Shown here piece after piece: positions 2,178-9,036 of a stretch of DNA of 35,788 nt. The translations under genes were made by a program, and so were the position numbers. Numbering within the stretch: the stretch's first letter is position 1; every line of letters begins with the position of its first letter. A model generated the notes under the pieces. It was not told the DNA's origin. It was given only the letters and a program-made list of their open reading frames with translations, and ran no database searches. Origin of the DNA: Aequorivita sp. (lineage in GTDB: Bacteria > Bacteroidota > Bacteroidia > Flavobacteriales > Flavobacteriaceae); contig PAZL01000044.1 of the NCBI GenBank assembly GCA_002715485.1, positions 1 to 35,788 of the forward strand, given 5' to 3'.

Positions 2178-2197
2178 GATTGCTTTATTTTGCGGCG

Positions 2198-3292
2198 ATG
2201 TCCCGGATTGCACTTTTAGTATTTCTTTTCACCACTTCTTTGATTTTTTCGCAAGAAAAAAACAAGGATTTCTTTGTGGACGCTAATTATTTCTACGGAA
2301 CTATACTTCGGCACAATAAGGATATTTCACATTTAGTGAAAGCACATCCCTATGGTTTCATTCTCGGGTTCAACCGAAAAACTTATGGAAACGAAAGTTG
2401 GCAACAGGAATACAATTACCCCGATTGGGGTTTTTCATTTGTGCATCAAAACGCAAATTATGATGTGCTGGGACAAAATTATGGTCTGTACGGTCATTTC
2501 AATTTTTACTTTTTAAAACGAAATCTCTTCTTCCGAATAGGGCAAGGGATTGCCTATAACACCAATCCTTTTGATTTGGAAACCAATTTTAAAAACAATG
2601 CATACGGAACCCGTTTGTTGAGTTCAACCTATTTAATGCTGAATTACAACAAACAAAACCTTTTTAAGAATTTTGGAGTACAGGCAGGGATTGCTTTGGT
2701 GCATTATTCCAACGGAAATTTTAAGGCGCCAAATTCGAGTACGAATGCATTTACGGTAAATATAGGAGTGCAATATGCTGTTACTGATGAAAGAAATCCT
2801 GAATACATTTCCGATTCCCTTCCCAATAAAATTACAGAACCCATAAAGTACAACTTTGTGCTTCGCGGCGGTTTGAACGAAAGTGATTATTTAAACCTTG
2901 GCCAGCACCCGTTTTTTGTGGTTTCGGCCTTTGCGGATAAGCGAGTGAGTTATAAAAGTACGCTTCAGTTGGGGGCTGATTTTTTCTATCTGCCATTTCT
3001 GAAAAAGGAAATAGAATATCTTTCCATTGCTTTTCCGAATATGGGCGTGGAAGGCGATGAGGATTTTAAGCGAGTCGGGGTTTTTGCAGGACACGAACTT
3101 CACATCAATAAATTGGCTATCGTTTCACAGGTTGGTTATTATGTTTATTATCCATACGATTTTGAGGGAAGGACTTATTTTCGGGTTGGTCTGAAATATT
3201 ATTTTTCCGAAAAACTTTTTAGTGCCATCACCTTAAAATCACACGGTGCAAAAGTGGAAGGCGTGGAATTTGGCGTGGGAATTAGAATATAG
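2198..3292 (+). CDS. PagL-like acyloxyacyl hydrolase / lipid A deacylase family outer-membrane protein, copy 1
   Basis: Predicted outer-membrane beta-barrel of the lipid A 3-O-deacylase (PagL)-related family, which in characterised members removes acyl chains from lipid A. The start at 2198 gives a clean signal peptide (MSRIALLVFLFTTSLIFSQ); an upstream TTG at 2180 would add six residues of no clear use. The mature part is rich in alternating aromatic strands. It carries the HYSNGNFKAPN motif, equivalent to the family His-x-Ser-Asn catalytic segment. At about 364 residues it is roughly twice the length of PagL, so a C-terminal extension is present. The GIN-domain lipoprotein starts 3 bases after the stop. 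A close paralogue with the same partner follows at 4076. Family assignment is good; the substrate is inferred. Confidence 0.75.
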   Translation: MSRIALLVFLFTTSLIFSQEKNKDFFVDANYFYGTILRHNKDISHLVKAHPYGFILGFNRKTYGNESWQQEYNYPDWGFSFVHQNANYDVLGQNYGLYGHFNFYFLKRNLFFRIGQGIAYNTNPFDLETNFKNNAYGTRLLSSTYLMLNYNKQNLFKNFGVQAGIALVHYSNGNFKAPNSSTNAFTVNIGVQYAVTDERNPEYISDSLPNKITEPIKYNFVLRGGLNESDYLNLGQHPFFVVSAFADKRVSYKSTLQLGADFFYLPFLKKEIEYLSIAFPNMGVEGDEDFKRVGVFAGHELHINKLAIVSQVGYYVYYPYDFEGRTYFRVGLKYYFSEKLFSAITLKSHGAKVEGVEFGVGIRI

Positions 3293-3295
3293 ATT

Positions 3296-4048
3296 ATGAA
3301 GAAGTTTCTTTTTATTGGGCTCATGTTTTTGTTGTTTTCATGCGATTCCGACAAGAGTTGGGATTGCGTTCAAACTGCTGGAAGTACGGTTTCCAAGGAA
3401 TATGTTGTTTCCGAATTTTCGAAAATCAGGATTGAGGATGATGTCACGCTCTATCTTAAACAAGGAGAAACGCAAGAAGTAAAACTTGAAACCGGTGAAA
3501 ACCTTTTGAGTGATATTTCCGTAAGTGTTGAAGAAAATACTTTGGTGGTTAAAGATAATAATGACTGTAATTTGGTGCGAGATTATGGAATTACGAAAGT
3601 ATTTGTAACCGTTCCAAACATTACTGAAATCAGGAATAGCTCGGCTTATGATGTGATTGGGGAAGGAACTTTAAACTTTCCAAATCTGACCTTGGTTAGC
3701 AATAGCTCAGCGGGACCAGAAACAATTAGAAAAAGTGGCGATTTTTATTTGAATATTATTTGTGAAAAATTTCGCGTAAGTGCAAACGGACAAAGTATTT
3801 TTTACATATCGGGCAATTCTGAAGAGGCCATTCTAAGTTTTGCGGATGAAATGCCACGCTTTGAGGGAAAGGATTTTATAATAAATGAACTTACTGTTTT
3901 TCAGCGAAGTGCAAACAAAATGATTGTAAACCCGCAAGAAAGTATCGTTGGAAAAATCGTGGCAACGGGCGATATTGTTAGCTACAACCGCCCGCCATTG
4001 GTAGATGTAAAAGAATTATTCACGGGCAGGCTATTATTTAAAGATTAG
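3296..4048 (+). CDS. GIN-domain (DUF2807-type) lipoprotein, copy 1
   Basis: The signal peptide ends in a lipobox (LLFSC, Cys16), so the product is an exported lipoprotein. The mature 235 residues begin DSDKSWDCVQTAG and consist of repeated short beta-strand motifs (IRIEDDVTLYLKQG, VFVTVPNITEIRNSSAYD) typical of the right-handed beta-solenoid of the putative auto-transporter adhesin, head GIN domain family. Two conserved cysteines (in WDCVQ and NDCNLVRDY) recur in the paralogue at 5214 and may form a disulfide. It lies 3 bases behind the PagL-like gene and is surely co-transcribed with it. The family has no firmly known biochemical function; a partner or scaffold role for the neighbouring barrel is only inference. 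Confidence 0.75.
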   Translation: MKKFLFIGLMFLLFSCDSDKSWDCVQTAGSTVSKEYVVSEFSKIRIEDDVTLYLKQGETQEVKLETGENLLSDISVSVEENTLVVKDNNDCNLVRDYGITKVFVTVPNITEIRNSSAYDVIGEGTLNFPNLTLVSNSSAGPETIRKSGDFYLNIICEKFRVSANGQSIFYISGNSEEAILSFADEMPRFEGKDFIINELTVFQRSANKMIVNPQESIVGKIVATGDIVSYNRPPLVDVKELFTGRLLFKD

Positions 4049-4050
4049 TT

Positions 4051-4058
4051 TATCTTTA
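4051..4058 (+). promoter_or_regulatory. Possible -7 element before the second PagL/GIN pair
   Basis: TATCTTTA matches the Bacteroidota TAnnTTTG element at seven of eight positions and lies 17 bases before the ATG at 4076. No convincing -33 TTG is visible. It would let the second copy of the module be transcribed separately. Confidence 0.3.
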
Positions 4059-4075
4059 CGGGCGTTGAAAAAAAT

Positions 4076-5185
4076 ATGAAGTACTTTCTTTCCGTATTCT
4101 CAGCTTTAATCTTGAGTATTCCTCTTTTTTCGCAGGAAAAAGAACTGAAGCCCGTTTCTTTGGAAGCAGATTTTTTCTATGGAAGCATTCTGGAACACAA
4201 TCCAGATATCGAACACTTAATTACTGGGCATCCCACTGGTTTCGTTCTCTCCTATAACCGAAAAAGTTATGGGTTTAATGAATGGGAACGTCGCTATAAT
4301 TACCCAGATTGGGGTTTTACGGTTGCCTATCAGAGTATGCATAACGAATATTTGGGTGATATTGTAGGCGCTTATGGGCATATAAACTGGTATTTTTTAA
4401 ACAGACATTTTATGCTCCGGGTAGGTCAGGGAATCGCCTATTCAGGAAGCCCTTTTGACGCCCAATCCAATTTCAATAATAACGCATACGGCACACAACT
4501 TTTAAGCACAACCCTTTTAAAAGGAAATTTTGTTCGCGAGAATATATGGAAGGGGCTTGGTTTTCATGCTGGATTTACAATTATTCATTATAGCAATGCC
4601 AATTTTAAAGCGCCAAACAATAGTACAAACACTTTTGCGCTGAATGCAGGAGTTAGCTATCAATTGGATTATAAAGAGTTTCCAGAGTATATCAAAAAAG
4701 AAGATTCGCTTAGCAGAACACACGCTGAGCGTGTAAAGTTCAATTTTGCCTTTCGGACTGGCGTTAATGAAAGTGATGTGGTTGGGCTCGGGCAGGAACC
4801 CTTTTATGTAGCTTCTGTTTTTGCCGATAAACGCATAAACTATAAAAGCACATTTACCGCTGGGGTAGATGTTTTCTTTTCAACTTTTTTAAAGGAATTG
4901 ATCAATTATCGCTCTATCGCTTACCCTGAAGACGGTCTTTCTGGTGATGAAGATTACAAGCGGGTTGGTATTTTTGTGGGCCATGAATGGCGTTTCAATA
5001 AAGTGGCCTTTGTTTCGCAGTTAGGGTATTATGTATATTGGCCCTATGAATTTGAAAACCGAGTTTATAACCGTTTGGGGTTGAAAAGATATTTTTTCAG
5101 TGATAAGGTCTTTGCCGCGGTAACCGTTCACGCGCATTGGGCGAAGGCCGAAGCTGTGGAATTTGGCGTTGGTTACCGATTGTAA
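4076..5185 (+). CDS. PagL-like acyloxyacyl hydrolase / lipid A deacylase family outer-membrane protein, copy 2
   Basis: Paralogue of the gene at 2198, collinear over the entire length. It shares NYPDWGF, RVGQGIAY, NNAYGTQLLSTT, the catalytic-type motif HYSNANFKAPN, ASVFADKRINYKST, GDEDYKRVGIFVGHEW and the C-terminus EAVEFGVGYRL. The signal peptide is MKYFLSVFSALILSIPLFSQ. Length is 369 residues. Nucleotide identity is clearly broken up by substitutions, so the duplication is not recent. The His and Ser of the HxSN motif are kept, so both copies look active. The GIN lipoprotein paralogue starts 28 bases after its stop, repeating the arrangement of copy 1. Outer-membrane location is inferred from the signal peptide, the aromatic strand pattern and family knowledge. 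Confidence 0.75.
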   Translation: MKYFLSVFSALILSIPLFSQEKELKPVSLEADFFYGSILEHNPDIEHLITGHPTGFVLSYNRKSYGFNEWERRYNYPDWGFTVAYQSMHNEYLGDIVGAYGHINWYFLNRHFMLRVGQGIAYSGSPFDAQSNFNNNAYGTQLLSTTLLKGNFVRENIWKGLGFHAGFTIIHYSNANFKAPNNSTNTFALNAGVSYQLDYKEFPEYIKKEDSLSRTHAERVKFNFAFRTGVNESDVVGLGQEPFYVASVFADKRINYKSTFTAGVDVFFSTFLKELINYRSIAYPEDGLSGDEDYKRVGIFVGHEWRFNKVAFVSQLGYYVYWPYEFENRVYNRLGLKRYFFSDKVFAAVTVHAHWAKAEAVEFGVGYRL

Positions 5186-5213
5186 AATTCTGAAATTTTC
5201 AGAAATAATAAAT

Positions 5214-5963
5214 ATGAAGAATTTAGTTTACGCTTTATTGATTTTGTTTTTTGCTGGATGTAGTTCAGATTCGGGCTGGAACTGTATTCAGACATCCGGA
5301 GATATTGTACAGAAAGAAGTTATGGTACCTTCATTTACCAAAATATTGGTTTGGGAACGTACCAAAGTATTCATCCAGCAGGGTGATGTTCAAAAAGTAA
5401 TTATTGAAACTGGCGAAAATTTAATGAACGATGTTGAGGTTTCGGTAACCGACGGAATGCTTGAAATTCACAATAATAATAGTTGCAATTTGGTCCGCGA
5501 TTATGAGCTTACAAAAATTTACATAACATCTCCTAATATTTCTGAAATAAGAAGCAGTACGGGTTATGCCATTGAAAGTATAGGTGTGCTTCGCTATCCG
5601 TCATTAACACTTTTATCTGAAGATCAGGAAAACGAGGATCAATACCACATTGACGGTGATTTTAAATTGAATTTAGAAGTACAGAGTTTAAGTGTTGTGG
5701 CAAACGGACTATCCAAATTTTATTTAAAGGGAAGTGCAACAAACACCAATTTTGGTCTGTACGCGGGCGATTGCCGAATTTTTGCTGAAAATTTAACCGT
5801 ACAAAATCTATATGTTTATCATCGAAGTACAGGTGAAATGATAGTAAATCCACAACTGGCCATTCGCGGCAAGATTGTGAGTTTGGGAAATGTTATTTCC
5901 AAAAACAGACCTTCAATCGTTGAGGTTGAAGAGCTCTATCGCGGCAAGCTTATTTTTGAATAG
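5214..5963 (+). CDS. GIN-domain (DUF2807-type) lipoprotein, copy 2
   Basis: Paralogue of the lipoprotein at 3296. The frame is open from 5163, but the ATG at 5214 gives a proper lipoprotein signal (MKNLVYALLILFFAGC, lipid-modified Cys16), so that start is used. The product has 249 residues. The mature protein begins SSDSGWNCIQTSG and repeats the blocks of copy 1: ETGENLMNDVEVSV, NNNSCNLVRDYELTKIYIT, NISEIRSSTGY, GEMIVNPQLAIRGKIV and NRPSIVEVEELYRGKLIF. Both conserved cysteines are retained. The last 14 bases overlap the 3' end of gldA on the opposite strand. Function unknown; strict pairing with a PagL-like barrel in both copies suggests a joint role. Confidence 0.73.
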   Translation: MKNLVYALLILFFAGCSSDSGWNCIQTSGDIVQKEVMVPSFTKILVWERTKVFIQQGDVQKVIIETGENLMNDVEVSVTDGMLEIHNNNSCNLVRDYELTKIYITSPNISEIRSSTGYAIESIGVLRYPSLTLLSEDQENEDQYHIDGDFKLNLEVQSLSVVANGLSKFYLKGSATNTNFGLYAGDCRIFAENLTVQNLYVYHRSTGEMIVNPQLAIRGKIVSLGNVISKNRPSIVEVEELYRGKLIFE

Positions 5964-6849
5964 TCAATTCCGAAAACAATTTTTCTAGCGTAGTGTTTTT
6001 TTGGTGTAGCTGAAGAATCTTTAAGCCATTATCGTGCGCAAAATCAAACACTTTTCCGCGCATATCCTGCTCGGTTTCAAAGTAAAGCTGATACACAAAA
6101 CCAATGGAGTTTTCAACTTTTTGAATCTTCGGAAGCTGCTGCAGTGCCACTTCTTCCACGCGATAATCAAATTCCACTTCAATAATCTGTTGCTGATTAT
6201 TTTTTAAATCTGAAAGTTTTTTATCGAGCACAATTTCGCCTTTGTTTATAATTATTACGCGATCACAAATGGCTTCCACTTCCTGCATAATGTGTGTGGA
6301 AAGCAATACCGTTTTTTCCTTCCCCACGTTTTTTATGAGCTGTCGGATTTCAATCAATTGATTTGGGTCTAAGCCCGTAGTCGGTTCATCCAAAATTAAG
6401 ACTTCCGGGTTGTGCAACAGCGCATTTGCAAGCCCAACGCGTTGGCGATACCCTTTTGAAAGTTGGCCTATTTTTTTGTTCGCTTCGGGCAGTAATCCTG
6501 TTTGTTCAATAACGTTTTCAACTTCAGATTTCGGAATATCATAAATCCCTGCATTAAAAAGAAGATATTCCCTAACATACATATCCAAATAAAGCGGGTT
6601 GTGTTCAGGCAGATAGCCCACGCTTTTTTTTACGGAAATATCATCCTTGGTTATTTCAAAACCATTCACGATAGCCACGCCTTCCGTAGCGGGAAGAAAG
6701 GTAGTCAATATTTTCATCATTGTGGATTTTCCAGCGCCGTTCGGGCCTAGAAAACCTACGATTTCACCTTTTTCAATAGTGAATGAAACTTTGTTTAGCG
6801 CTTTTTGTTCGCCGTATGTTTTGGTAATATTTTCTACTTGTATCGACAT
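5950..6849 (-). CDS. gldA: Gliding motility-associated ABC transporter ATP-binding subunit
   Basis: ATPase subunit of the GldA-GldF-GldG ABC transporter associated with gliding in Flavobacterium; works at the cytoplasmic face of the inner membrane. It has Walker A GPNGAGKST at residues 35-43, the signature LSKGYRQRVGLANALLHNP, Walker B VLILDEPTTGLD, and the H-loop STHIMQEVEAICDR. Length 299 with a C-terminal regulatory-type domain (VEVEFDYRVEEVALQQLP onward) matches GldA rather than a bare 220-residue ABC domain. gldF and gldG are not adjacent here. It is convergent with the GIN lipoprotein (14-base 3' overlap) and divergent from the pheA leader. A generic multidrug or Na+ export ATPase is the alternative, but GldA is the closer match. 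Confidence 0.85.
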   Translation of the reverse strand: MSIQVENITKTYGEQKALNKVSFTIEKGEIVGFLGPNGAGKSTMMKILTTFLPATEGVAIVNGFEITKDDISVKKSVGYLPEHNPLYLDMYVREYLLFNAGIYDIPKSEVENVIEQTGLLPEANKKIGQLSKGYRQRVGLANALLHNPEVLILDEPTTGLDPNQLIEIRQLIKNVGKEKTVLLSTHIMQEVEAICDRVIIINKGEIVLDKKLSDLKNNQQQIIEVEFDYRVEEVALQQLPKIQKVENSIGFVYQLYFETEQDMRGKVFDFAHDNGLKILQLHQKNTTLEKLFSELTIQK

Positions 6850-6865
6850 ATTTTTAGAAGTTGAA

Positions 6866-6873
6866 CAAAGTTA
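6866..6873 (-). promoter_or_regulatory. gldA -7 promoter element
   Basis: On the minus strand this reads TAACTTTG, a perfect match to the Bacteroidota -7 consensus TAnnTTTG. It lies 16 bases upstream of the gldA ATG. A clear -33 TTG is not seen in the T-rich upstream run. Confidence 0.5.
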
Positions 6874-6920
6874 AGCAAATAAAAAAATGAAAAAAGGCTT
6901 TTCCGCTGTTAAGAATTTTA

Positions 6921-6928
6921 TACATTAG
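6921..6928 (+). promoter_or_regulatory. Possible -7 element for the pheA leader transcript
   Basis: TACATTAG matches TAnnTTTG at seven of eight positions. It would place transcription initiation about 6935, ten or so bases before the leader peptide ATG at 6946. No good -33 element is seen, so this is tentative. Confidence 0.3.
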
Positions 6929-6945
6929 CAATCTATTAAAACACA

Positions 6946-7017
6946 ATGAGCACAATTTTTACTTTCAACAATTTTTGGTTTTTCTATTTTAACGATAGAA
7001 CCGGGATTGTTGTATAG
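6946..7017 (+). CDS. pheL: Phenylalanine-rich leader peptide of the pheA attenuator
   Basis: A 23-codon open frame (ATG 6946, TAG 7015) upstream of pheA. Residues 5-15 read FTFNNFWFFYF: six Phe, one Trp and one Tyr in eleven codons, an extreme bias for the end products of the downstream pathway. The peptide ends NDRTGIVV. Its codons for Thr-Gly-Ile contain the antiterminator strand (7001-7008), and the Phe codons begin just as RNA segment 1 (6966-6972) ends. This arrangement, followed by a Rho-independent terminator and then pheA, is that of a ribosome-mediated attenuation leader. It is too short for usual gene-calling thresholds. No Shine-Dalgarno sequence is seen, as usual in this phylum. 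Confidence 0.85.
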   Translation: MSTIFTFNNFWFFYFNDRTGIVV

Positions 7018-7074
7018 GTAACTGAACCATAAAAACATTTAAAGTCCCGGAATTATTTTCCGGGATTTTTTTTT
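6966..7074 (+). promoter_or_regulatory. Transcription attenuator of the pheA-aroG operon
   Basis: All three mutually exclusive pairings of a classical attenuator can be drawn. 1:2 is CAACAAT (6966-6972) with ATTGTTG (7006-7012), 7 bp perfect, enclosing the Phe codons. 2:3 is CCGGGATT (7001-7008) with AAGTCCCGG (7043-7050 region), 8 bp including one G-U. 3:4 is the terminator TCCCGGAA (7045-7052) with TTCCGGGA (7058-7065), followed by nine T. Segment 2 is shared by 1:2 and 2:3; segment 3 by 2:3 and 3:4. Stalling on Phe codons when charged tRNA-Phe is scarce would cover segment 1, free segment 2, form 2:3 and let RNA polymerase continue into pheA. The mechanism is inferred from the pairing; the pairings themselves are seen directly. 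Confidence 0.8.
7045..7074 (+). terminator. Intrinsic terminator (attenuator arm 3:4) before pheA
   Basis: Perfect 8-bp GC-rich stem, loop TTATT (7053-7057), then nine consecutive T (7066-7074). It sits 18 bases before the pheA ATG, between the leader peptide and the structural gene. Confidence 0.92.
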
Positions 7075-7091
7075 AACCTAATTTTAAAATT

Positions 7092-7967
7092 ATGAGCCTT
7101 AAAGTCGCGATACAGGGAATTGAAAGTTCGTTCCACCACCAAGCCGTCCAAAAACTTTTTCCTAATGAGGAAATTACAATTTTAAATTGTGATTCTTTCG
7201 AAAAGGTAACAACCGCCGTAAATAATGGTAATGCAGATTACGGAGTAATTGCCATTGAAAATACCATTGTGGGCTCTATTTTGTCCAATTACGGATTGAT
7301 TGATACTGGCCATTTTGGAATCTTGGCTGAAACGATTTTAAATATTCAGATGTATGTAATGGCTTTGGAAAGTGAGTCCATCCACGATATAAAGGAGATT
7401 CACTCACATCCCGTTGCGTTGCTTCAGTGTCGGGATTATTTGCAGAAATTTCCGCCACAGTTTAAAGTCATTGAAGGAAAGGACACAGCTTCCGAAGCAA
7501 AAAGAATAAAAGATGAAAAATTAATGGGCGTTGCGGCTATTGCGGGAAGGCAAGTTGCAGAAAAGTTCGGTCTCAAAATTTTAGACAGCAATATCCAAGA
7601 TATAAAGGAAAACCACACGCGCTTCGTACTTTTGGGCAAAAAAGAGAATCAAACTATTCGGCGAGCTGACAAAGCTTCCATTAAATTTGTTTTGGAACAC
7701 AATGTGGGAAGTTTGGGAAATGTGTTGAATCTTTTGACTACTTTCAACATAAACCTGACCAAAATACAGTCGTTGCCAATTGTTGGCAAACCTTGGCAGT
7801 ATGCGTTTTTTGTGGATGTGGTTTTTGAGGATAAAAATTTATTTTTTGAAGTAATGGAAATGCTAAAAAAAACAGTGAAAGAATTAAAAATATTGGGCGT
7901 TTACAAACAAGATGAAAGTCATGCCCAAGCTCAATTTTCAAATGCAATTTTAAATGGAAAACAATAA
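7092..7967 (+). CDS. pheA: Prephenate dehydratase
   Basis: Converts prephenate to phenylpyruvate, the committed step to phenylalanine. The N-terminal two-lobed dehydratase domain covers about residues 1-180, with IAIENTIVGS and the catalytic ENHTRFVLLG (Thr-Arg-Phe). A C-terminal ACT domain (about 195-275) contains VGSLGNVLNLLTTFNINLTKIQSLP, the Phe-binding allosteric region. No N-terminal chorismate mutase is present; that activity is supplied by the downstream fusion. 291 residues is normal for the monofunctional enzyme. The gene overlaps aroG by 14 bases, implying translational coupling. Expression is probably set by the attenuator immediately upstream, and enzyme activity by Phe at the ACT domain. 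Confidence 0.95.
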   Translation: MSLKVAIQGIESSFHHQAVQKLFPNEEITILNCDSFEKVTTAVNNGNADYGVIAIENTIVGSILSNYGLIDTGHFGILAETILNIQMYVMALESESIHDIKEIHSHPVALLQCRDYLQKFPPQFKVIEGKDTASEAKRIKDEKLMGVAAIAGRQVAEKFGLKILDSNIQDIKENHTRFVLLGKKENQTIRRADKASIKFVLEHNVGSLGNVLNLLTTFNINLTKIQSLPIVGKPWQYAFFVDVVFEDKNLFFEVMEMLKKTVKELKILGVYKQDESHAQAQFSNAILNGKQ

Positions 7968-9036
7968 AAACCTTCGCAACTGGCTGAATAAAATGGAGCT
8001 TGCCCATCCACTAGTTATCGCTGGGCCGTGCAGTGCCGAAACGGAAGAACAAGTATTGAAAATTGCACATCAATTAAAAGAAACAGACACTACCGTACTA
8101 CGTGCAGGAATTTGGAAACCGAGAACCCGTCCGGGAAATTTTGAGGGGGTGGGTGCCCTGGGGCTTAAATGGCTTCAAAAAGCAAAACAGGAAACTGGCT
8201 TAATGACCGCAACCGAAGTAGCAAATGCCAATCACGTAGATTTGGCCTTAAAACACGATGTTGATATTCTCTGGGTTGGCGCGCGCACTACAGTTTCGCC
8301 ATTTATCGTGCAGGAAATCGCCGATGCTTTAAAGGGAACGGAAAAAATTGTTTTGATAAAAAATCCCGTGAACCCAGATTTGGCGCTTTGGCTGGGTGCT
8401 GTAGAGCGCTTTTATGAAAGTGATGTGAAAAACCTGGGCGTAATTCATCGTGGATTCTCAACGTATGAAAAAACACGCTACCGTAACAACCCTGAATGGC
8501 AAATACCCATTGACCTTCAAAATAAATTTCCAGATTTGCCTTTAATCCTCGATCCTTCACATATTGCGGGGCGCAGGGATATTATATTTGACCTTTGCCA
8601 AACTGCTTTGGACCTAAATTACGATGGCTTGATGGTAGAAACGCATTTTGATCCCGATAACGCCTGGAGCGATGCAGCACAGCAAATTACTCCCGCAAGT
8701 TTAAAACAAATGACGATTGATTTGCGAATTCGAAAACAGGAAGGCGATGCAGTTGAGTTTAAAAATAAACTGAATACTTTGCGAACCAAGATAGATGTAT
8801 TGGATCATCAACTGATAGAGTCCTTAGGAAAACGAATGAAAATTGCCGATGATATTGGGATGTTGAAAAAGAAGAACAACGTTGCCATTCTTCAAACAAA
8901 ACGTTGGAACGAAATTTTGGGAAAAATGATTTTGGAGGGCGAAGAAAACCAGTTAAGTGAGGAATTTATTTTACGAATTTTTAAAGCAATTCACCAAGAA
9001 TCAATCAATCATCAAAAAAAGGTTATTAATGATTGA
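7954..9036 (+). CDS. aroG: Bifunctional 3-deoxy-7-phosphoheptulonate synthase / chorismate mutase
   Basis: First step of the shikimate pathway (PEP + erythrose-4-phosphate) fused to the step that turns chorismate into prephenate. The DAHP synthase domain (about residues 15-260, type I-beta) shows VIAGPCSAE, RAGIWKPRTRPGNFEG, VGARTTVSPF, KNPVNPDL, RGFSTYEKTRYRN and ILDPSHIAGRRD. The AroQ-type helical chorismate mutase follows (about 270-350), with LRTKIDVLDHQLIESLGKRM and the invariant basic residues in GMLKKKN. Bacteroidota carry this fusion, the reverse order of the Bacillus CM-DAHPS fusion. The symbol is approximate; aroF or aroA(G) are also used. The product, prephenate, is the substrate of PheA encoded just upstream. 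Confidence 0.95.
   Translation: MENNKNLRNWLNKMELAHPLVIAGPCSAETEEQVLKIAHQLKETDTTVLRAGIWKPRTRPGNFEGVGALGLKWLQKAKQETGLMTATEVANANHVDLALKHDVDILWVGARTTVSPFIVQEIADALKGTEKIVLIKNPVNPDLALWLGAVERFYESDVKNLGVIHRGFSTYEKTRYRNNPEWQIPIDLQNKFPDLPLILDPSHIAGRRDIIFDLCQTALDLNYDGLMVETHFDPDNAWSDAAQQITPASLKQMTIDLRIRKQEGDAVEFKNKLNTLRTKIDVLDHQLIESLGKRMKIADDIGMLKKKNNVAILQTKRWNEILGKMILEGEENQLSEEFILRIFKAIHQESINHQKKVIND

Follow-up and report, generated by a model that had tools for sequence, protein, structure and literature searches.

A putative leader-peptide attenuator with aromatic control codons upstream of pheA-aroG in Aequorivita sp. and related Flavobacteriaceae

Genes, leader and RNA segments at the pheA locus

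The stretch of DNA analyzed here (35,788 nt; hereafter the window) comes from an Aequorivita genome. The PheA of this genome shares 91% identity with the protein of Aequorivita lipolytica and 88% with that of A. antarctica. The order of features at the locus is a divergent gldA, a promoter-like box, a 23-codon open reading frame (ORF), a terminator hairpin, pheA and aroG. The gldA gene (TIGR03522) occupies 5950-6849 on the (−) strand, divergent from pheA, and all of the other features lie on the (+) strand. Prephenate dehydratase is encoded by pheA (7092-7967; PF00800, E = 1.1e-52), the C-terminal part of which gave a weak match to the ACT domain (PF01842; 22.8 bits, under the cut-off of 27). 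Overlapping the end of pheA, aroG (7954-9036) encodes a fusion of DAHP synthase with type II chorismate mutase (PF00793 and PF01817) and is the sole match to the PF00793 family of DAHP synthases in the window's 90%-complete genome. Farther upstream, at 2180-5963, tandem gene pairs that are similar by eye (2180-3292 with 4076-5185, and 3296-4048 with 5163-5963) look like a segmental duplication.

The leader ORF (MSTIFTFNNFWFFYFNDRTGIVV; 6946-7017) runs for 23 codons from an ATG at 6946 to a TAG at 7015-7017, and residues 5-15, where the control codons lie (F5 to F15), include six Phe along with a single Trp and a single Tyr. It is a short ORF rich in codons for the product of the operon, as attenuation calls for, and it ends 74 bases ahead of the pheA ATG (7092). 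A promoter-like −7 box, TACATTAG (6921-6928), was recognized by motif likeness, and its function is predicted; it matches TANNTTTG, which we take to be the consensus of the Bacteroidota-type −7 element, and would place the transcription start at around 6935. Of 161 leaders (a set that includes 10 repeats of others), 148 have the word TANNTT[TA]G no more than 60 bases 5′ of their ATG, compared with 8% of shuffled stretches, and its spacing from the ATG is 16-19 bases in 97 of those 148.

Four RNA segments within and beyond the ORF define three stems. Segment 1 (6966-6972, within the Phe-rich codons) is a perfect 7-bp complement of 7006-7012 (CAACAAT with ATTGTTG), and this 1:2 stem is present in the minimum-free-energy (MFE) fold. 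Segment 2 (7001-7012, codons 19-23) can use 7006-7012 for segment 1 or 7001-7008 for segment 3, the latter giving the predicted antiterminator (CCGGGATT with AGTCCCGG at 7043-7050; seven Watson-Crick pairs and one G-U). Segment 3 (7041-7052) is common to antiterminator and terminator, as judged by folding and covariation, and pairs through TCCCGGAA (7045-7052) with TTCCGGGA (7058-7065) in a terminator stem that can be extended to 12 pairs (7041-7052 with 7058-7069). Segment 4 (7058-7069) is the 3′ arm of this putative intrinsic terminator, as the 3:4 covariation described below suggests, and a run of nine T, read directly from the sequence, occupies 7066-7074.

The leader RNA (6936-7076) folds at −34.9 kcal/mol (z = −4.47), and none of 200 dinucleotide shuffles was as good. 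An ORF with at least 7 aromatics per 9 residues, as in the window, arose in only 7 of 4,500 dinucleotide-shuffled upstream regions and in none of 414 other 400-base stretches from the first 30 loci. A preliminary description of this DNA had given coordinates for the leader, the stems, the T-run and the gap to pheA, all of which proved exact on re-reading the sequence; the MFE fold that it had proposed as a check indicates an unusually stable RNA that contains the 1:2 stem.

Distribution of the leader and covariation of its stems

PheA was found at a cut-off of E = 1e-20 in 178 of 199 family genomes, and the DNA upstream of it was read for the best 90 of these 178, the window included. An aromatic leader (an aromatic cluster of at least 5 per 9 residues, and at least 7 in 86 leaders) followed by a hairpin with a T-run precedes pheA in 89 of these 90 genomes; the exception (L030) has pheA without the leader and neither aroG nor tyrA beside it. 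Among named loci, taken as the best 80 of 576 with a PheA alignment, 45 fall in the PheA clade of the window. All 45 have the leader and the terminator, and aroG follows pheA in 44; in the remaining one (probably L113), the stretch ends just past pheA. The other 35 named loci are mostly Bacteroidales, with an aromatic leader in 27 and none in 8, and a perfect-stem terminator lies downstream of 19 of the 27 leaders. The family and named sets overlap, ten leaders of the latter being identical to ones in the former.

We sampled 99 genomes of the phylum, 87 of which encode PheA, and fetched 20 of these 87 upstream regions; genomes with a longer, fused-frame PheA (e.g., G245, of the same class) are among those outside the fetch. 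The leader was found in 0 of 2 genomes labeled as same order, 8 of 9 labeled as same class (a label with 10 PheA-encoding genomes among 13 sampled), 1 of 1 of the same family and 2 of 8 from the wider phylum. Within the same class outside the family, this amounts to 8 of 11 fetched genomes. By these comparisons, the device is common in the class, yet not universal. Relatives of PheA, TyrA and AroG also stand behind an aromatic leader on a contig labeled Lentisphaeria (L144), which may reflect transfer or a misplaced contig.

Within the family, PheA falls into two lineages: one with 57-67% identity to the window's protein and the order pheA-aroG, and one with 42-49% identity among the other matches listed, in which the order pheA-aminotransferase-tyrA was seen in 13 of the 15 loci with gene order read. 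A covariance model built from 26 leaders and run on 29 genomes returned the pheA leader as its top match in 24, 6 of which are in the training set. At E = 0.1, it had no match in four genomes (G060, G025, G027 and G023) and a match elsewhere in a fifth (G119), and many of the 29 genomes also have weaker extra matches.

We scored base-pair changes in alignment A3, which holds 26 leaders in one register; the larger alignment A2 (50 leaders) mixes two reading registers of segment 2, and its other 24 leaders were left out of the pair counts. For 3:4, 95.3% of cells are paired and 5 pairs have changed on both sides, with a covariation score of 0.349 (shuffled mean, 0.230; reached by 0 of 500 shuffles, which leave relatedness in). 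For 2:3, the corresponding values are 88.9% of cells, 4 pairs and 0.242 (shuffled mean, 0.170; again reached by 0 of 500 such shuffles). Sliding the stems by 1 to 3 columns lowered pairing to 25-62% (3:4) and 5-62% (2:3). The number of further pair types did not rise above shuffles, which reached it in 377 of 500 cases for 3:4 and 414 of 500 for 2:3. Segments 2, 3 and 4 of Aequorivita antarctica (L096) have changed together at a single position of the GC core when compared with the window and with the other four rows of the genus. Duplexes of a leader's own segments were also more stable than duplexes with swapped partners, both for 2:3 (−12.19 vs −8.79; own better in 85 of 89; 0 of 5,000 permutations) and for 1:2 (−18.01 vs −12.67; own better in 84 of 89; 0 of 5,000 permutations), a comparison that likewise leaves relatedness in.

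The antiterminator and the terminator are thus mutually exclusive structures backed by covariation in the aligned leaders. The 1:2 stem is less well supported: over its 25 MFE pairs, 78.0% of cells are paired in the 26 leaders, compared with 38-52% for slid versions, and its covariation score is no better than that of shuffles (142 of 500 reach it). The preliminary description had named conservation and covariation among relatives as a check; the core of the peptide, like the stems 2:3 and 3:4, is indeed conserved and covarying, and of its three stems only 1:2, at 78% pairing, shows covariation not beyond shuffles.

Aromatic codons of the leader and operon content

The preliminary description took the device to be a Phe sensor. 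One way to keep that view is to suppose the same attenuator, in which Phe codons alone matter and Tyr and Trp are tolerated passengers that persist through RNA structure or chance, a reading that we regard as possible though rather doubtful. It draws on E. coli, our sole enterobacterial comparison, in which pheL uses Phe only (7 Phe, no Tyr and no Trp) and which differs in this from the mixture of Phe, Tyr and Trp found here. In a first count, ORFs and cores were picked by Phe, Tyr and Trp jointly and are hence biased for Tyr and Trp; Phe was present in 89 of 89 family leaders, in keeping with that reading, Tyr in 89 of 89 and Trp in 66 of 89.

A repeat count, with the ORF picked by Phe alone, returned the same ORF in 86 of 89 cases, and the 3 differing leaders were left out. 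The residues lying between Phe residues in these 86 leaders are Tyr (126), Asn (34), Trp (26), Ser (12), Thr (11), Arg (6), Gly (6), Lys (2) and Gln, Leu, His and Val (1 each), with no Ile and no Cys. Since drift in AT-rich DNA should also yield Ile, Leu and Lys, the preference for Tyr and Trp speaks against mere drift, as does the scarcity of Leu, Val and Lys against the idea that Phe alone matters. The Asn residues are probably kept by pairing.

Among leaders of the window's type with 23 codons (43 different sequences), column counts revealed that columns 10-15 are near-frozen: Phe 40/Tyr 3 in column 10; Trp 40 and Tyr, Ser and Arg once each in column 11; Phe 32/Tyr 10/His 1 in column 12; Phe 43 in column 13; Tyr 34/Phe 9 in column 14; and Phe 42/Gly 1 in column 15. 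The single Ser and the single Arg at the Trp column of the window's clade would suit a passenger role. So would the place of codon 14 (Tyr/Phe) in a small MFE hairpin, where alignment columns 41 and 51 pair as A-U (10 rows) or U-A (5 rows); however, this pair is broken in 10 of 26 rows. A script selecting on later motifs and ends gave 14 leaders of one clade-2 type; their column 7 holds only Trp (10), Tyr (2) or Phe (2), which also argues against Phe codons alone being read. Across these leaders, Phe and Tyr replace each other almost exclusively and Trp is common, so that, as far as the sequences tell, this is not a pure Phe sensor. Phe alone is probably too narrow, Tyr and Trp codons being apparently under the same constraint.

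The Tyr load of the leader follows operon content in the sequences compared. Tyr residues average 1.84 per leader in the window's clade (49 unique leaders) and 3.00 in 13 leaders with tyrA beside pheA, these 13 being assigned by eye together with PF02153 matches at those places (Mann-Whitney p = 1e-4, relatedness left in). Another 60 leaders from the family, taken without regard to gene order, average 3.43. In the 26 unique leaders of the other named loci, Tyr (4.27 per leader) and Phe (4.85) are nearly equal, which again weighs against Phe codons alone. A tyrA match (PF02153) over the cut-off was found in 0 of 15 genomes of the window's clade (two weak matches lie below it) vs 14 of 14 in a comparison set, and a biopterin-dependent hydroxylase (PF00351) in 13 of 15 vs 6 of 14. 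Judging by the protein family, the window's clade probably makes Tyr from Phe via this hydroxylase; if it does, the supply of Phe in this clade also feeds Tyr. One genome of the window's clade (G060, 99% complete) is without both tyrA and the hydroxylase. A counter-case to the trend is G007, which has pheA-aroG and no tyrA, yet up to 4 Phe and 3 Tyr in its leader core.

A genome of the same genus (G027, 99% complete) lacks a PheA match at E = 1e-20 and a tyrA match and has the hydroxylase. Its locus is syntenic (gldA, leader, aroG [83% identical] and rsgA), with no pheA between leader and aroG. The leader, read by eye on the (−) strand of L210 (G027:C6; ATG at L210:2718, running down), includes a short ORF, MIMKPIYNFSKAWWHMFQNIR, with Trp-Trp where relatives have the Phe run; the box, segments 2, 3 and 4 and the T-run are recognizable by eye. 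Trp-Trp is absent from all 89 family leaders, and its replacement of the Phe run at this locus, where pheA was not found, weighs against Phe codons alone being read. Covariance model R1 does not recover this leader, whose fold stands out less (z = −1.58; equaled by 13 of 200 shuffles), and G027 is a single case. Of the amino acids derived from the aroG product, the chief one left to G027 would be Trp. Leaders of the trpL type have tandem Trp codons, and the G027 leader resembles them but precedes aroG at a locus that elsewhere reads pheA-aroG.

For the wider proposal, we see the evidence as evenly poised: this may be a multivalent attenuator for the aromatic amino acids that is widespread in the class and has control codons retuned in evolution to the products of the operon. 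They would be Phe and Tyr (with Trp) where pheA is accompanied by the Tyr branch and an aminotransferase, chiefly Phe and less Tyr where tyrA is missing and a hydroxylase probably supplies Tyr from Phe, and Trp-Trp where pheA is absent and the leader is followed by the DAHP synthase gene alone. Multivalent attenuators such as those of ilvGMEDA and thrABC have one leader with codons for several operon end products; they read branched-chain amino acids or Thr and Ile, whereas all three aromatics would be read here.

Probable attenuation of pheA-aroG and its relation to known systems

Attenuation places different demands on the two parts of the leader. Over 2,094 codons, we counted 834 aromatic codons in frame vs 274 and 390 in the other frames (the ORFs having been picked for aromatics), and 0 stops in frame vs 109 and 142. 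Third-base change in columns 10-15 is modest (codon 13 is TTC in 38 leaders and TTT in 5). Most of codons 16-23 vary as peptide, columns 16-22 far more than columns 10-15, and in part of the clade segment 2 is shifted by one base in the codon frame, so that its RNA word reads Arg-Val rather than Gly-Ile. In these alignments, the core of the leader is kept as codons and its tail as RNA; a core under codon constraint and a tail under RNA constraint is the pattern that attenuation requires. It is also what makes it very improbable that the region is a constitutive or protein-controlled 5′ UTR terminator with an incidental ORF: a strong intrinsic terminator alone could set expression, but the aromatic codons are specific to one stop-free frame, the amino acids are kept despite some third-base change, and changes in the tail of the ORF track the RNA rather than the peptide.

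In other phyla, aromatic genes are under T-box control, and this precedent is what favors a T-box, riboswitch or other known RNA family, a reading that we give almost no weight. Across the whole window, no Rfam family attained its gathering score, and a permissive scan of 6850-7120 gave 25 sub-gathering matches (including His_leader at 20.7 bits, Phe_leader at 18.4 and Thr_leader at 17.4) without a T-box or riboswitch among them; this candidate was dropped on these grounds. Nor do we give more than negligible weight to a terminator of the upstream gene or a functional small protein: gldA is on the (−) strand and runs the other way, so the terminator cannot serve it, and although short ORFs can be functional, the C-terminal third of this peptide is poorly conserved and its register changes with segment 2.

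We are therefore highly confident, from anatomy, conservation and the covariation of 2:3 and 3:4, which bear out the interpretation first offered, that a ribosome-mediated transcription attenuator controls pheA-aroG. Polymerase would start near 6935, and a ribosome would translate the leader. With charged aromatic tRNAs plentiful, the ribosome would reach the TAG (7015-7017) and cover segment 2, the 3:4 terminator would form and a transcript of ~140 nt would result. With charged tRNA-Phe scarce (or, by extension, tRNA-Tyr or tRNA-Trp), it would stall in codons 10-15 and leave segment 2 free to take segment 3 before segment 4 exists, and with the antiterminator formed polymerase would continue into pheA-aroG. 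It is from this arrangement that we infer a translated leader, ribosome stalling, a response to amino acids and the identity of the sensed aromatics.

The geometry and energies are consistent with this scheme. The last core codon, F15, lies at 6988-6990 and segment 2 starts at 7001; a ribosome halted at codons 10-14 would not cover segment 2, and one at the stop would. The stop codon is near segment 2, and the distance from it to 7041 is 23 bases (median, 24; range, 20-53 over 89 leaders), which leaves segment 3 clear of a ribosome at the stop. A ribosome is said to cover up to 12 nt downstream (PMC4833913). With a ribosome assumed over the sequence to 6996 and segment 4 unmade, 2:3 is predicted to form (−15.7 in all), and with the ribosome placed at the stop, 3:4 forms (−17.3). 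At equilibrium with segment 2 free, the terminator is still favored (3:4, −17.3 vs 2:3 alone, −11.5), while in the naked leader that does not yet contain segment 4, 2:3 is favored over 1:2; the switch must therefore be kinetic, and the untranslated state is ambiguous.

The arrangement is like that of enterobacterial pheL-pheA (Phe_leader, RF01859), in which a leader peptide precedes the gene for prephenate dehydratase and which has both an antiterminator and a terminator in E. coli. The gap between leader and pheA measures 74 bases in the window, compared with 98 in E. coli K-12. Unlike in pheL-pheA, segment 2 here is within the last sense codons. The Phe_leader model scored 18.4 bits on the window, below its gathering score of 55. 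Work by Vitreschak from 2004 is said to list Bacteroidetes/Chlorobi attenuators, and Lopatovskaya reportedly published a paper on attenuation in 2010.

The preliminary description also held such attenuation to be little described in Flavobacteriia, which is half true, as two papers precede this analysis (PMC9723704; PMC1173090). In Flavobacterium psychrophilum, a structured, transcribed 5′ element without Rfam matches was reported 5′ of pheA and said to occur in other genera of the Flavobacteriaceae, and strong clues for leader-peptide attenuation 5′ of amino-acid operons were described (PMC9723704, 2021); the consulted portions of its main text describe neither a leader peptide for pheA and its codons nor a switch. 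The element described here would be the same one. A putative attenuator was also placed before the Bacteroides thetaiotaomicron operon pheA>hisHb>aroAI-beta-aroQ>tyrA (PMC1173090, 2005, Table 7), an operon of the same type in the same phylum as the window; in the part of the source consulted, it is a structure prediction from a website, without leader peptide or codon logic. With the 2005 prediction and the 2021 element, the device is not undescribed. Mixed aromatic codons that change with operon content were not found in searches of the openly licensed PubMed Central literature.

Two further candidate leaders occur in the window's genome. Before hisG (L196; G000:C13), MNNSFLHHHHIFLHALAR includes four His codons in a row, and a hairpin with a T-run comes after it; a short ORF with three consecutive Trp codons, MKTFTQNTWWWKNLRKNS, lies at a contig end (L199; G000:C22) some 0.7 kb 5′ of a truncated chorismate-binding match, perhaps trpE. 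Given a His-rich hisG leader and a Trp-rich ORF, attenuation may be general in this genome.

To our knowledge, regulation of the aromatic amino acid pathways has been little studied in this large bacterial group, for which the leader provides a concrete, testable control element of aromatic amino acid synthesis; leader peptides of such length fall below normal annotation. The series of lineages in which the Tyr branch is present, the Tyr branch is absent or pheA is absent opens the question of how attenuators switch the amino acid that they sense, and because codons and RNA segments evolve under separable constraints, such a change would be directly testable.
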